Assembly (NCBI GenBank): GCA_021803025.1
Contig: JAJZQV010000023.1
Location: forward strand, 1-35,794
Length of the DNA: 35,794 bases
Origin: Actinomycetes bacterium
GTDB taxonomy: Bacteria > Actinomycetota > Actinomycetes > Propionibacteriales > Propionibacteriaceae
Reading direction: 5' to 3'
This document shows positions 9,883 to 22,031 of the stretch, piece after piece. The notes under the pieces are model-generated. The model did not search any database, was not told the DNA's origin, and saw nothing but the letters and a program-made list of their open reading frames with translations. Numbering within the stretch: the stretch's first letter is position 1; each line of letters starts with the position of its first letter. The position numbers and the translations under genes were made by a program.

Positions 9883-11478
9883 TCAGCCGACAGGCGCGGA
9901 CAGGACCGCGATCCCGTACAGGTACGCATCGGCCAGGGCTTCGTACGAGGCCTCGATGACGTTGCTGCCCACCCCCACGGTCGTCCAGCTCCGGCCGTCC
10001 ATCCGGGTGTCGATGAGCACCCGGACGATCGCGTCCGTGCCGTGGCCGGTGTCGAGGATGCGTACGCGGTAGTCCACGAGCTCGAACCGCGACGCGACCG
10101 GGAACGCGGGCTCGAGCGCCGTCCGCAGCGCCATGTCGAGCGCGTTGACCGGGCCGTTCCCGTCGCCGGCGAACAGCCGCGACGGCTCGCCGTTGGTCGA
10201 GACCCGCAGGATCGCCTCGCTGAGGTCGGTCTGGTCGCAGAAGACCCGCCACTGGTCGACTTTGAACGGACGCTCCAGCTGGCCGAGCTCCTCGCGGAGC
10301 AGCAGGTCGAACGAGGCGTCGGCGGCCTCGTACGAGTACCCCTGCGCCTCGCGGTCCTTGATCCGGTCGGTGACCCGGGCGGCCGTGTCGCGGTCGGACA
10401 GGTCGTGCCCCAGCTGCTCGCCCTTGATCTGGATGTTCGCGCGGCCCGCCATGTCCGAGATGAGCATGCGCATGGTGTTGCCGACGACGGCCGGGTCCGC
10501 GTGCTGGTAGAGCATCTCGTCGACCTTGATCGCCGACGCGTGGAGACCCGCCTTGTGCGCAAACGCGGACGTTCCCGTGTACGGCTGGCGAGCCTGCGGT
10601 GACTGGTTGGCGATCTCGGCGATCGCGTGCGAGATCCGGGTCAGCTCCTGCAGCGCCTCCGGCGCGATGAGAGGCCAGCCGAACTTGATCTGGAGGTTGC
10701 CGATGACGGTGACGAGGTCGGCATTGCCCGTCCGCTCGCCGTATCCGTTGATCGTGCCCTGCACGTGCATGGCGCCGGCCTCGACCGCGGCGATGGTGTT
10801 CGCCACCGCGCAGCCCGTGTCGTTGTGGCAGTGGATGCCCAGGTCCACGCCGATGGCGGACGCGGCGCTGACCACCTCGCCCATCCAGCTCGGCAGCATG
10901 CCGCCGTTCGTGTCGCAGAGGATGACCACCTCGGCGCCCGCCTCCGCCGCCGTACGGACGACGTCCAGCGCGTACTCGGGGTTGCTGAGGTAGCCGTCGA
11001 AGAAGTGCTCGGCGTCGACGAAGACGCGCTTGCCCTGGGAGCGGAGGTACGTGATCGTGTCGCTCACCATGCGGAGGTTCTCGGCGAGCGTGGTCCGCAG
11101 GGCGTCCGTGACGTGGCGGTCGTGCGACTTCGCGACGATGCAGATCATCGGGGTCTGGGCGTCGACGAGGGCTTGCACGAGAGGGTCCTCGCAGGCCTTC
11201 ATGCCGACGCGGGTCGTCATGCCGAACGCGACGAGCGTCGCGTTCGTCAGCGTCAGGCTCTTCGCCGCCTCGGCGAAGAACGCGGTGTCGTTGGGGTTGG
11301 CGCCCGGCCAGCCGCCCTCGATGAATGTCACGCCGAGCTCGTCGAGCAGCGTCGCGATCCGGAGCTTGTCGGACACCGAGAGGCGGAGCCCCTCCTGCTG
11401 CGCCCCGTCACGCAGGGTCGTGTCGAAGATCTGGAAGTTCTCGGGGATGGCGTGCACCGGGCTCATCTCAACCTTCAT
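9883..11478 (-). CDS. cimA: Citramalate synthase
   Basis: A 531-aa member of the isopropylmalate/homocitrate/citramalate synthase family, of the CimA type. It condenses pyruvate with acetyl-CoA to (R)-citramalate, opening the threonine-independent route to 2-ketobutyrate and isoleucine. Seen: DTTLRDGAQ at residues 19-27 (metal and catalytic Arg), VDAEHFFDGY (about 154-163), CDTNGG (188-193), HCHNDTGCAVAN (216-227), HKAGLHASA, and a C-terminal LeuA-type allosteric dimer domain (from about 400). Early YxxxF-type residues and the AEHFFDG segment favour CimA over LeuA. The start is ATG 11478 with only a weak GAGCAG upstream; ATG 11466, preceded by AAGG, is an alternative. It lies downstream of ilvE and upstream of a small LiaF-like gene. 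Confidence 0.92.
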   Translation of the reverse strand: MKVEMSPVHAIPENFQIFDTTLRDGAQQEGLRLSVSDKLRIATLLDELGVTFIEGGWPGANPNDTAFFAEAAKSLTLTNATLVAFGMTTRVGMKACEDPLVQALVDAQTPMICIVAKSHDRHVTDALRTTLAENLRMVSDTITYLRSQGKRVFVDAEHFFDGYLSNPEYALDVVRTAAEAGAEVVILCDTNGGMLPSWMGEVVSAASAIGVDLGIHCHNDTGCAVANTIAAVEAGAMHVQGTINGYGERTGNADLVTVIGNLQIKFGWPLIAPEALQELTRISHAIAEIANQSPQARQPYTGTSAFAHKAGLHASAIKVDEMLYQHADPAVVGNTMRMLISDMAGRANIQIKGEQLGHDLSDRDTAARVTDRIKDREAQGYSYEAADASFDLLLREELGQLERPFKVDQWRVFCDQTDLSEAILRVSTNGEPSRLFAGDGNGPVNALDMALRTALEPAFPVASRFELVDYRVRILDTGHGTDAIVRVLIDTRMDGRSWTTVGVGSNVIEASYEALADAYLYGIAVLSAPVG

Positions 11479-17834: not shown

Positions 17835-18899
<1,065 letters not shown>

Positions 18900-19439
18900 T
18901 CAGACGCGCTCGGACTTCGGGGTCTTGTCGTAGCGGCTGCGGTCGGTGATGGCACGGGAGCCACGGCCGAGGGCCACAGAGCCGGACTGGACCAGTTCAC
19001 GGATACCGTACGGCTCCAGCAGCTGCAGGAGGGCCTGGATCTTGCCGTAGCCACCGGTCGCCTCGACGACGACGGTGTCGGGGGCCACGTCGACGACGCG
19101 GCCGCGGAACATCTCGGCGATCTCGAGCACCTGGCTGCGGTTGCGCCCGTCGGCACGGACCTTGACGAGGATGAGCTCTCTCCGCACGGCCTCGCCGTGG
19201 TCGAACTCGAGGATGCGGATCACCTCGACGAGCTTGTTGAGCTGCTTGGTGATCTGCTCGAGCACGGCGTCGTTCTCGACCTCGATGACCAGCGTGACGC
19301 GGCTGAGCTCGTGGTTCTCGGTCGGACCGACGGCGAGAGACTCGATGTTGAAGCCACGGCGGGCGAACAGGCCCGAGATCCTGGCCAGGACGCCGGGCTG
19401 GTTCTGCACCAGCACCGACAGCGTGTGGAACGCGCTCAC
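18900..19439 (-). CDS. ilvN: Acetolactate synthase small (regulatory) subunit
   Basis: A 179-aa regulatory subunit giving valine feedback inhibition and full activity to IlvB. Residues 1-75 form the ACT domain ([20 protein letters not shown], then [11 protein letters not shown], then LSRVTLV), and the second half is the usual AHAS small-subunit C-terminal domain ([22 protein letters not shown]). GTG 19439 overlaps the ilvB stop as GTGA and is preceded by GAGGAGGAG, so synthesis is coupled to the catalytic subunit. Confidence 0.96.
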
Positions 19440-21190
19440 AGCTCCTCCTCATCCCACGCCGGAGCGAGGTCCTTCGCGATCTTGATGTCGCTGTTCGAGG
19501 TCCCCGCAGCCACCATCGGCCACACCATCGCGTCCTTGTGGACGACGAAGTCGATGACGACGGGGCGGTCGTTGATCTCCAGCGCCTGCTTGATGACCAT
19601 GTCGACCTCGGCCGGCGTCTCTGCCCGGAGCCCGACGCAGCCCATGGCCTCGGCGAGCTTCACGAAGTCGGGGATCCGCCACGAGTGGAGGTCGGTGTTC
19701 GAGTGTCTCCCGTTGTAGAACAGCGTCTGCCACTGGCGCACCATGCCGAGCGACTCGTTGTTGATGATCGCGATCTTGACCGGGATGTCGTTGAGCGCGC
19801 ACGTGACGAGCTCCTGGTTGGTCATCTGGAAGCACCCGTCGCCGTCGATGCCCCACACCACGGCGTCGGGCTTGCCGACCTTGGCGCCCATGGCGGCTGG
19901 GACGCAGTACCCCATCGTGCCCGCGCCGCCCGAAGTCAGCCACGTGTGCGGCTTCTGGTGCGGCAGGAAGTGGGCGGCCCACATCTGGTGCTGGCCCACG
20001 CCGGTGGCGAAGATGGTGTCCGGTCCGCTGAGCTCGCCGATCCGCTTGATGACCTCCTGGGGCTGCAGGTAGTCGTCCGTGGGGTCCCCCGGGTCGGTCG
20101 GGTAGCGCTCCTTGAGACTTGCGAGGTACGAGGTCCAGGGAGCGAGGTCCTTCAGCGTCTCGCCCTCCAGCTCACGCGCCAGCTGGGCCATCATGAGCTT
20201 CGCGTCTCCGACGATGGGCAGGTCCGCCTCGCGGTTCTTCCCGATCTCGGCCGGATCGATGTCGCAGTGGATGACCTTGGCCTCGGGCGCGAACGTCGAC
20301 AGCTGGCCGGTCACCCGGTCGTCGAACCGCATCCCGATCGCGATGAACAGGTCGCAGCGCTGGAGCGCCCCGACGGCTGCCACGGTTCCGTGCATCCCCG
20401 GCATCCCCATGTTCAGGGGATGCGCGTCGGGAAACATCCCGCGCGCCATGAGGGTGGTCACGACCGGGATGCCCGTCTGCTCGACGAGGTGGGCGAGCTC
20501 CGCGCCGCCGTCGGCCTTGCTCACACCGCCGCCGATGACAAACACCGGGCGGGACGCGTCCGCGATCATCTTGGCGGCCTGCTGCACCTGGCGCGTGTGG
20601 GGACGGACCGTCGGACGGTAGCCGGGGAGGTCCACCTCGCCGGTCCACTCGAACTGCGTCATCGCTGAGAGGGCGTCCTTGCTGATGTCGACGAGGACGG
20701 GCCCGGGCCGTCCCGTACCTGCGATCTCGAACGCCGCCGCGATGGCGGACGGGATCTCGGCGGGGTTGGTGACGAGGAAGTTGTGCTTGGTGATCGGGAA
20801 CGTGATGCCCCGGATGTCGGCCTCCTGGAACGCGTCGGTCCCGATGGCCGCCGAGTTCACCTGCCCGGTGATCGCGACGATCGGCACCGAGTCCATGTAC
20901 GCGTCGGCCAGGCCGGTGACGAGGTTCGTCGCACCGGGGCCGGAGGTCGCCATGCACACGCCGACCTTGCCCGTGGCCACCGCGTAGCCCTCGGCGGCGT
21001 GCGCGGCGCCCTGCTCGTGCCGCACGAGGATGTGACGCACCTTCGAGTCGAACAGCGGGTCGTACGCAGGAAGGATCGCGCCGCCCGGGATGCCGAAGAT
21101 GACTTCTACGCCCACAGCCTCGAGCGATGCGACGAGAGCCTGGGCGCCCGTCATGGTCTGCTTGCTGTCGGAGAGCACTGTGTGTGTCAT
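19436..21190 (-). CDS. ilvB: Acetolactate synthase large (catalytic) subunit
   Basis: A 584-aa ThDP enzyme that condenses two pyruvates to acetolactate, or pyruvate with 2-ketobutyrate to acetohydroxybutyrate. Seen: [15 protein letters not shown] (residues 32-46), catalytic Glu 59 in [14 protein letters not shown], the central FAD-binding domain with [10 protein letters not shown], and the ThDP/Mg motif [15 protein letters not shown] near residues 445-460 with a downstream [12 protein letters not shown]. Start ATG 21190 with GAGGAG 6 nt upstream. A transcription attenuator with a BCAA leader peptide precedes it. Confidence 0.97.
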
Positions 21191-21232
21191 CTGTCGCTCC
21201 TCGGGTGAGTAGGTCTACGTGCGGCTGTCATG

Positions 21233-21265
21233 AAAAAACCCCCGCTGCCGTTCGGCAGACGAGGG
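21233..21265 (-). terminator. ilvB attenuator terminator
   Basis: On the minus strand CCCTCGTCTGCC pairs with GGCAGCGGGGG around GAAC and is followed directly by six T residues: a classical intrinsic terminator 43 nt upstream of the ilvB start. Together with the leader peptide and the pause-type hairpin it makes up a transcription attenuator. Confidence 0.85.
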
Positions 21266-21266
21266 T

Positions 21267-21298
21267 GCGTGTCGACGGCCCCGGGGGCCACGACACGC
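21267..21298 (-). other. ilvB leader hairpin (likely pause/protector stem)
   Basis: GCGTGTCG (21267-21274) pairs with CGACACGC (21291-21298), and GGCCCC with GGGGCC inside. It begins 2 nt past the leader-peptide stop, so a ribosome at the stop or stalled on the leader codons would disturb it. An explicit antiterminator pairing was not worked out by eye. Confidence 0.7.
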
Positions 21299-21300
21299 TG

Positions 21301-21324
21301 TCACAGTACGAGGACGATCCGCAC
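21301..21324 (-). CDS. ilvB attenuator leader peptide (M-R-I-V-L-V-L)
   Basis: GTG CGG ATC GTC CTC GTA CTG TGA encodes a 7-aa peptide of which five consecutive residues are Ile, Val or Leu, the end products of the operon. It is too short for normal gene finding. It sits directly upstream of two hairpins, the second with a T6 tract, and then ilvB, as in ribosome-mediated attenuation. No Shine-Dalgarno is present; a -10 box lies 7 nt before the GTG, so the leader appears to be translated from a leaderless RNA. Confidence 0.85.
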   Translation of the reverse strand: MRIVLVL

Positions 21325-21331
21325 GTCGCCC

Positions 21332-21361
21332 ACTATGCCGCTGGACTGCGGATGACGTCAA
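21332..21361 (-). promoter_or_regulatory. ilvBNC promoter
   Basis: On the minus strand TTGACG (21356-21361) and CATAGT (21332-21337) are spaced by 18 bp. The -10 lies 7 nt from the leader-peptide GTG, placing the transcription start at or next to that codon. Confidence 0.75.
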
Positions 21362-21388
21362 TGCGTGGACTGGTGTTCTCGACATGCG

Positions 21389-21418
21389 GACGGGGACGGC
21401 CCGAAGGCCATCCCCGTC
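21389..21418 (-). terminator. Terminator hairpin of the small membrane protein gene
   Basis: GACGGGGA-C-GGCC and GGCC-A-TCCCCGTC pair over 12 bp with one mismatch around CGAA, 10 nt past the stop at 21429. No T-run. It also separates this gene from the ilvB promoter downstream. Confidence 0.6.
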
Positions 21419-21428
21419 GTGATGCGGT

Positions 21429-22031
21429 TCAGCTCACCGAGACGCTCTGGGGAGCCGCAGCCTCCGACTTGCCCTTGAGCACAGTGAAGGAAAGCACGAC
21501 CAGGGCCGCGCCGAGGATGAGCGCGATGGCGCCGATCCAGATGGCGATGGTGCCGATGAGCCAGAACGCGTAGGCGGTCAGGAGGCTCGTGCGCAGCATG
21601 TCACCCTTGAACAGCGTGTCGCGGAGACCGGAGTACGCGGCCTTCTGGGTGGAATCAGTCGTGGCGCTGACCACGGCACCGAGCCCGGAGTAGGTGCACT
21701 TGTCGGCGGGCACCGCCGGGACGGCGTTGCCGTTGGCGTCCTTGACCGTGCTGCAGGCGGCGGTCATGTGCTCCCAGATGTAGTGGTTGGCGTAGGCCTG
21801 GGCCGCGTCGCCGCTGGCCATGGGCTGACCGGCGAATGGGGCCAGGGCATCCTGCGAGGCCTTCGGCAGGTTCTTGTACGCCGCAGCCGCCGGCATCGTG
21901 ATCTTCTCCTGAGAGAGCTGGTCAGTGACGTAGCCGTGTGCGTAGAGGCCGGCGACGAGAGCGAAGACGCCCACGGCCAGCGCGATGACACCGAAAACCT
22001 GGGCGAGCACCCGGTAGACGACAGTCTTCAT
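21429..22031 (-). CDS. Membrane protein of unknown function (actinobacterial family often mislabelled LigA)
   Basis: A 200-aa protein with one N-terminal membrane helix (about residues 8-33), a roughly 110-residue outside domain rich in Ala/Thr/Ser with two cysteines (in AACSTV and DKCTYSG, possibly a disulfide), and two C-terminal helices (about 150-185). Proteins opening MKTVVYRVLAQVFGVIAL with YAHGYV-DQLSQEKITMP are widespread in Actinobacteria and have been named 'aromatic ring-opening dioxygenase LigA' without enzymatic evidence; no dioxygenase motif is visible here. ATG 22031 has AAGGG 7 nt upstream. The gene stands alone between its own promoter and terminator. Confidence 0.75.
   Translation of the reverse strand: MKTVVYRVLAQVFGVIALAVGVFALVAGLYAHGYVTDQLSQEKITMPAAAAYKNLPKASQDALAPFAGQPMASGDAAQAYANHYIWEHMTAACSTVKDANGNAVPAVPADKCTYSGLGAVVSATTDSTQKAAYSGLRDTLFKGDMLRTSLLTAYAFWLIGTIAIWIGAIALILGAALVVLSFTVLKGKSEAAAPQSVSVS

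Follow-up and report, generated by a model that had tools for sequence, protein, structure and literature searches.

The ilvBNC operon of this Propionibacteriaceae genome is very probably controlled by a ribosome-mediated attenuator built on a leaderless leader peptide, judging from the 35,794-nt stretch of contig JAJZQV010000023.1 that we analysed (hereafter, the window) and from its relatives. The original prediction, made from the letters of the window, had read the region in this way, and this is still the best reading in view of conservation, covariation, a natural change of codons on the citramalate synthase gene (cimA), and precedents in Corynebacterium, Streptomyces, and Mycobacterium. 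Leaderless ilvB leader peptides have been reported before, from C. glutamicum and from Streptomyces, and M. tuberculosis is known to attenuate ilvB; the window adds a Propionibacteriaceae case, and leaderless branched-chain amino acid (BCAA) attenuation, known from a few model actinobacteria, very probably extends to this family and to most of the Actinomycetes sampled. Three features appear to be undescribed and are the parts worth following as testable additions: a CTC-GTA codon pair whose rare GTA lies 10-11 nt before the first hairpin (P1), as if set by a ruler; the abutment, without a linker, of P1 and the terminator hairpin (T), with no conserved strand exchange or evident antiterminator; and a sister element with Ile-Ile codons upstream of cimA in other Actinomycetes.

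All components lie on the minus strand. The -35 box (TTGACG, 21356-21361), whose position relative to the leader start is common to relatives, is separated by an 18-nt spacer from the -10 box (CATAGT, 21332-21337), and 7 nt (GGGCGAC) further on begins the apparently leaderless reading frame GTG-CGG-ATC-GTC-CTC-GTA-CTG-TGA (21301-21324; M-R-I-V-L-V-L, the first residue being M/V), which starts at 21324-21322 and stops at 21303-21301. After the dinucleotide CA follow P1 (21267-21298; basal stem GCGUGUCG/CGACACGC), identified by folding, covariation, and its spacing from the leader codons, and, directly abutting it, the T stem-loop (ACCCUCGUCUGCC-GAAC-GGCAGCGGGGGU, 21238-21266), identified by folding and covariation, with a T6 tract (21233-21238) that completes an intrinsic terminator. 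Downstream are the ilvB Shine-Dalgarno sequence (GAGGAG, 21197-21202), ilvB itself, encoding the acetohydroxyacid synthase large subunit (19436-21190, ATG at 21190), ilvN for the small subunit (18900-19439), whose start shares 4 nt with the ilvB stop, and the ilvC reading frame for ketol-acid reductoisomerase (17835-18866), the last two named from sequence and position.

This anatomy agrees with the first description in its coordinates and in its parts: a seven-codon leader 7 nt 3' of the -10 box, a GTG that no Shine-Dalgarno precedes in the window sequence, a stop codon 2 nt before a strong hairpin, a T6 intrinsic terminator ahead of ilvB (its stem of about -20.7 kcal/mol also covaries), and five regulatory codons, I-V-L-V-L, that cover all three BCAAs within seven codons. 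A further GTG, at 21333, shares the leader frame; it overlaps the -10 box and would be 5' of the predicted start. A pattern search of the whole genome returned no ATG version of the leader, the start being GTG. Moreover, a covariance model found a single copy of the attenuator in this genome, and an Rfam scan of the whole window gave, at gathering score, only two tRNAs and no T-box, riboswitch, or other motif. The nearest named relative of IlvB belongs to a Propionibacteriaceae MAG (93%).

For the comparative analysis, 80 named contigs together with 80 genomes of the family yielded 140 distinct regions upstream of ilvB; the best promoter was chosen regardless of any reading frame, and a short frame was then sought 4-9 nt 3' of its -10 box. 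An ATG or GTG frame with at least three consecutive Ile/Leu/Val codons was present at this distance in 122/140 regions (87%), against 0.2% of shuffled sequences. Among the 122 positive loci, 90 had 6 nt between the -10 box and the start codon, and 27 had 7 nt. Leader length ranged from 7 to 18 amino acids among the 135 loci with both leader and U-run, seven being the shortest class, and the covariance model matched in 111/148 Actinomycetes genomes. T could instead be the ordinary terminator of the upstream gene, accompanied by a chance short frame, and a co-directional gene does end at 21429; but the promoter sits between that gene and T, and the class as a whole conserves the codons of the leader, its frame, and its spacing, which refutes this reading unless all of this is incidental, an extremely improbable outcome.

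The predicted leaderless start is supported, to within 2-3 nt, by the conserved spacing of 6-7 nt together with the mapped leaders of S. lividans and C. glutamicum. The ilvL leader of S. lividans, MRTRILVLGKRVG, is reported to be transcribed leaderless (PMC8079986), and an identical peptide occurs in four of our loci (L173, L174, L175, and L177), where the promoter spacing is 7 nt and the CTC-GTA pair and abutting P1/T are shared with the window element. In C. glutamicum, whose leaderless ilvB leader has been known since 2000 (Morbach et al., 2000, as cited in PMC11857589), transcription starts one nucleotide from the leader ATG (PMC11857589). Transcription might nevertheless begin a few to tens of nucleotides further upstream, leaving a short 5' UTR, as the sequence cannot give the exact start; we consider this very unlikely, since in nearly all loci the start codon lies 6-7 nt after the -10 box, where the start site is expected, and the same architecture maps leaderless in S. 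lividans, and to within one nucleotide of the ATG in C. glutamicum. A comparison of Shine-Dalgarno sequences at the leader and ilvB starts had little power, the ilvB start positions being approximate.

The 92-nt leader RNA has a minimum free energy of -53.2 kcal/mol in a fold where P1 and T coexist with a small hairpin at the 5' end (GUGCGG/CUCGUAC), which recurs in several relatives and is not general. Among 43 aligned elements, 97.5% of the P1/T cells are standard pairs, and double changes in P1 and T number 38, compared with 8.7 in shuffles, a signal that was lost when the partners were slid. The start of P1 falls 9-14 nt after the first nucleotide of GTA (10 nt in 60/95 loci and 11 nt in 18/95, SD 1.0 nt; 11 nt in the window), whereas the distance from the stop codon to P1 is scattered (-14 to +6, SD 6.9 nt), so that the ruler is set by the regulatory codon and not by the stop. 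P1 has the properties of a switching hairpin open to masking by the ribosome between the regulatory codons and the stop: it covaries, and at most loci its distance from GTA is 10-11 nt. Furthermore, of 132 loci, 103 have no nucleotide between P1 and T, 20 have one, and 9 have two. Since zero gaps arise in about a third of minimum-energy folds even when the linker is shuffled, the argument from abutment rests on the basal P1 stems of at least 6 bp, found in all 132 loci kept, and not on the fold by itself. Outside the window's family, more distant members of the phylum (L190, L191, L193, L202, L172, and L182) keep GTA and the abutting P1/T, and their hairpin sequences are quite different.

The regulatory pair CTC-GTA (Leu-Val, 21307-21312 in the window) is present in 97/135 leaders and is an unusual way of writing these residues. 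GTA makes up 48% of the Val codons in leaders, compared with 1.4% of those in window genes and 2.0% in the set of 80 IlvB genes; for Ile, the share of ATT is 52% in leaders versus 8% in IlvB, and Leu-Val pairs are written CTC-GTA in 97 of about 123 cases in leaders versus 6/503 in IlvB. Because the pair is kept despite quite different terminators, coding rather than pairing is the likely reason for it. For Leu, Val, and Ile, respectively, the leaders of the 135 ilvB loci prefer CTC/CTT, GTA, and ATT, unlike gene usage, and this preference suggests selection for particular tRNA isoacceptors.

A ribosome covers about 12 nt past the first nucleotide of the A site. With CTC in the A site, its edge would therefore lie at the base of P1; with GTA there, the ribosome would cover about 2-3 nt of P1, with the last BCAA codon there about 5 nt, and at the stop codon the basal 5' arm. 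Such geometry fits a model in which a stalled ribosome leaves P1 free to form, whereas one at the stop codon masks it.

The original prediction had proposed RNA folding as a check for an antiterminator, and this check brought to light no conserved alternative pairing. The duplex between the P1 3' arm and the T 5' arm had no energetic advantage over its counterparts with shuffled T arms (132 loci, mean z +0.21), neither the leader nor either arm of P1 paired with the T arms beyond chance (mean z near 0 for the pairs shown), and consensus folding of stalled states retained only P1 remnants and 2-bp alternatives. Folding of truncated and ribosome-masked RNAs left the T 5' arm mostly free when P1 was formed. 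The element was consequently not assigned to the classical strand-exchange (trp/his) class, as no terminator-exclusive pairing rose above chance, and standard strand exchange does not explain the switching. An arrangement of the trp type, in which a stalled ribosome masks the P1 5' arm and the freed 3' arm pairs with the T 5' arm, P1 acting as an anti-antiterminator, has general precedent and the three-hairpin model of C. glutamicum behind it (PMC11857589), as well as the masking of P1 noted above, about 2-3 nt for a stall at GTA and about 5 nt for one at the last BCAA codon. It is nonetheless unlikely here, given that its key duplex is at chance, that the stalled-state folds offer only remnant P1 and 2-bp alternatives, and that both arms are pyrimidine-rich. 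We also considered, and rejected, leader CUCGU as a decoy for the T 3' arm: the pairing is possible in the window's family, but CTC-GTA is kept where that arm differs, the pairing shows no excess over shuffles, and the regulatory logic would run backwards.

In the mechanism that we propose, transcription would start no more than about 3 nt from the leader GTG, as the conserved spacing implies, so that the ribosome would initiate at the 5' end without a Shine-Dalgarno sequence. When Ile, Val, and Leu tRNAs are charged, the ribosome would reach TGA and cover the P1 5' arm, and T would terminate transcription before ilvB. Under a shortage of branched-chain aminoacyl-tRNAs, it would stall on I-V-L-V-L, above all on CTC-GTA, where its front would just reach the base of P1, leaving P1 free to fold, and RNA polymerase would read through into ilvBNC. 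In this scheme the anatomy, conservation, covariation, codon ruler, abutment, and cimA elements are observed, and the start site, stalling, termination, and readthrough are inferred. In the last step, folded P1, abutting T, would keep the T stem from completing in the RNA exit channel, with no strand shared between them. We prefer this version of the switching step only tentatively and at less than even confidence. If an abutting hairpin does block T, transcription attenuation can do without competing strands. The elements could then, as an equally tentative proposal, represent an Actinomycetota class of attenuators without strand exchange, in which a hairpin positioned by the regulatory codons, and masked or released by the ribosome, abuts and sterically blocks the terminator, the regulatory codons being Leu-Val for ilvB and Ile for cimA.

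The weakest point of this steric model of P1 is that untranslated, free RNA would fold P1 too, predicting readthrough, against which stands the C. glutamicum attenuator, with a different hairpin layout, where expression falls by 80% when the start codon is lost (PMC11857589). Two further points weigh against the model: P1 and T coexist in the minimum free energy fold, and a ribosome stalled at the last BCAA codon would cover about 5 nt of P1. P1 might alternatively aid termination, either as part of a tandem-hairpin terminator that re-forms once the ribosome departs, with a stalled ribosome weakening P1, or as a pause hairpin that allows a ribosome to load on the leaderless mRNA. This would suit the abutment of P1 and T, a pause role has been proposed for the first hairpin of C. 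glutamicum (PMC11857589), and a proposal that hairpin clusters act as transcription terminators is found in PMC8355165. T is strong by itself (about -20.7 kcal/mol plus T6), so that a weaker P1 should not yield readthrough, and a pause role would fit the favoured model without replacing it; we thus regard a terminating role of P1 as improbable. Codon changes in the S. coelicolor ilvB leader had no effect, as cited by Seliverstov et al. (PMC1262725), which also speaks against the attenuator proposed here.

Comparison with known systems places the window element close to several of them. The C. glutamicum ilvBNC attenuator, which corresponds to the ilvB-II motif (PMC10272879), likewise combines a leaderless BCAA leader peptide and an intrinsic terminator on the same operon, and codon and start mutants alter its expression (PMC11857589); it differs in having a 15-amino-acid leader and three overlapping hairpins in a 292-nt region, in contrast to the 7 codons and two abutting hairpins of the window element, whose U-run ends after about 92 nt. 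The ilvL elements of S. lividans and S. coelicolor (PMC8079986; ilvB candidates in PMC1262725) also have a leaderless leader, hairpins, and a U-tract before ilvBHC, but the Streptomyces leader is longer and its last codons lie inside P1, whereas the window leader ends 2 nt before it. In M. tuberculosis, ilvB1NC is preceded by a terminator and a BCAA upstream frame with GUA as the regulatory codon, and an LVVI-to-AAAA change abolishes the response (PMC13236596). A ribosome at the stop codon is proposed there to block an antiterminator, a logic shared with the steric model, although those authors propose a mutually exclusive terminator and antiterminator, an overlap not found in the window class. 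Mycobacterial polycysteine attenuators (Canestrari et al., 2020, as described in PMC13236596) are similarly leaderless short-frame sensors of an amino acid, but use cysteine codons and are described in that source as translation attenuation.

Ten genomes carried two copies of the element, the second lying 5' of a citramalate synthase family gene (L239, L242, L244, L246, L248, L250, L252, L254, L256, and L258); eight of the ten proteins were scanned, and all exceeded the TIGR00977 cut-off. With the addition of further cimA loci (L269-L298), an upstream covariance-model match was found in 27/40 (E up to 1, the weakest being marginal). Among the 24 cimA loci whose leader is clear, almost every one has an Ile-Ile run (e.g., MAQALIIG, MTAVIIII, and MSTQVIIT), with ATT twice as frequent as ATC; the P1-T gap is 0 in 21/24, and in most cases 7-9 nt separate the last Ile codon from P1. 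Citramalate synthase contributes to isoleucine only, so the leader codons match the product in what amounts to a natural codon-swap experiment, and this match gives indirect support to attenuation acting through the leader codons. A literature search, with most subscription papers outside its scope, returned no report of such an Ile-coded element. The window's genome has two citramalate synthase genes, one in the window (9904-11433, minus strand), before which no Ile element was seen, and one on contig C100 of the same assembly (G000).

Regarding the upstream flank, the co-directional gene at 21429-22031 (minus strand) encodes a protein with a hydrophobic C-terminal part, and similar C-terminal ends precede the attenuator in two loci of the same genus (L091 and L093), so synteny may be conserved. 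Just 3' of this gene lies a strong GC hairpin without a T-run (GACGGGGATGGCCTTCGGGCCGTCCCCGTC, 21385-21416), which probably limits readthrough into the attenuator.
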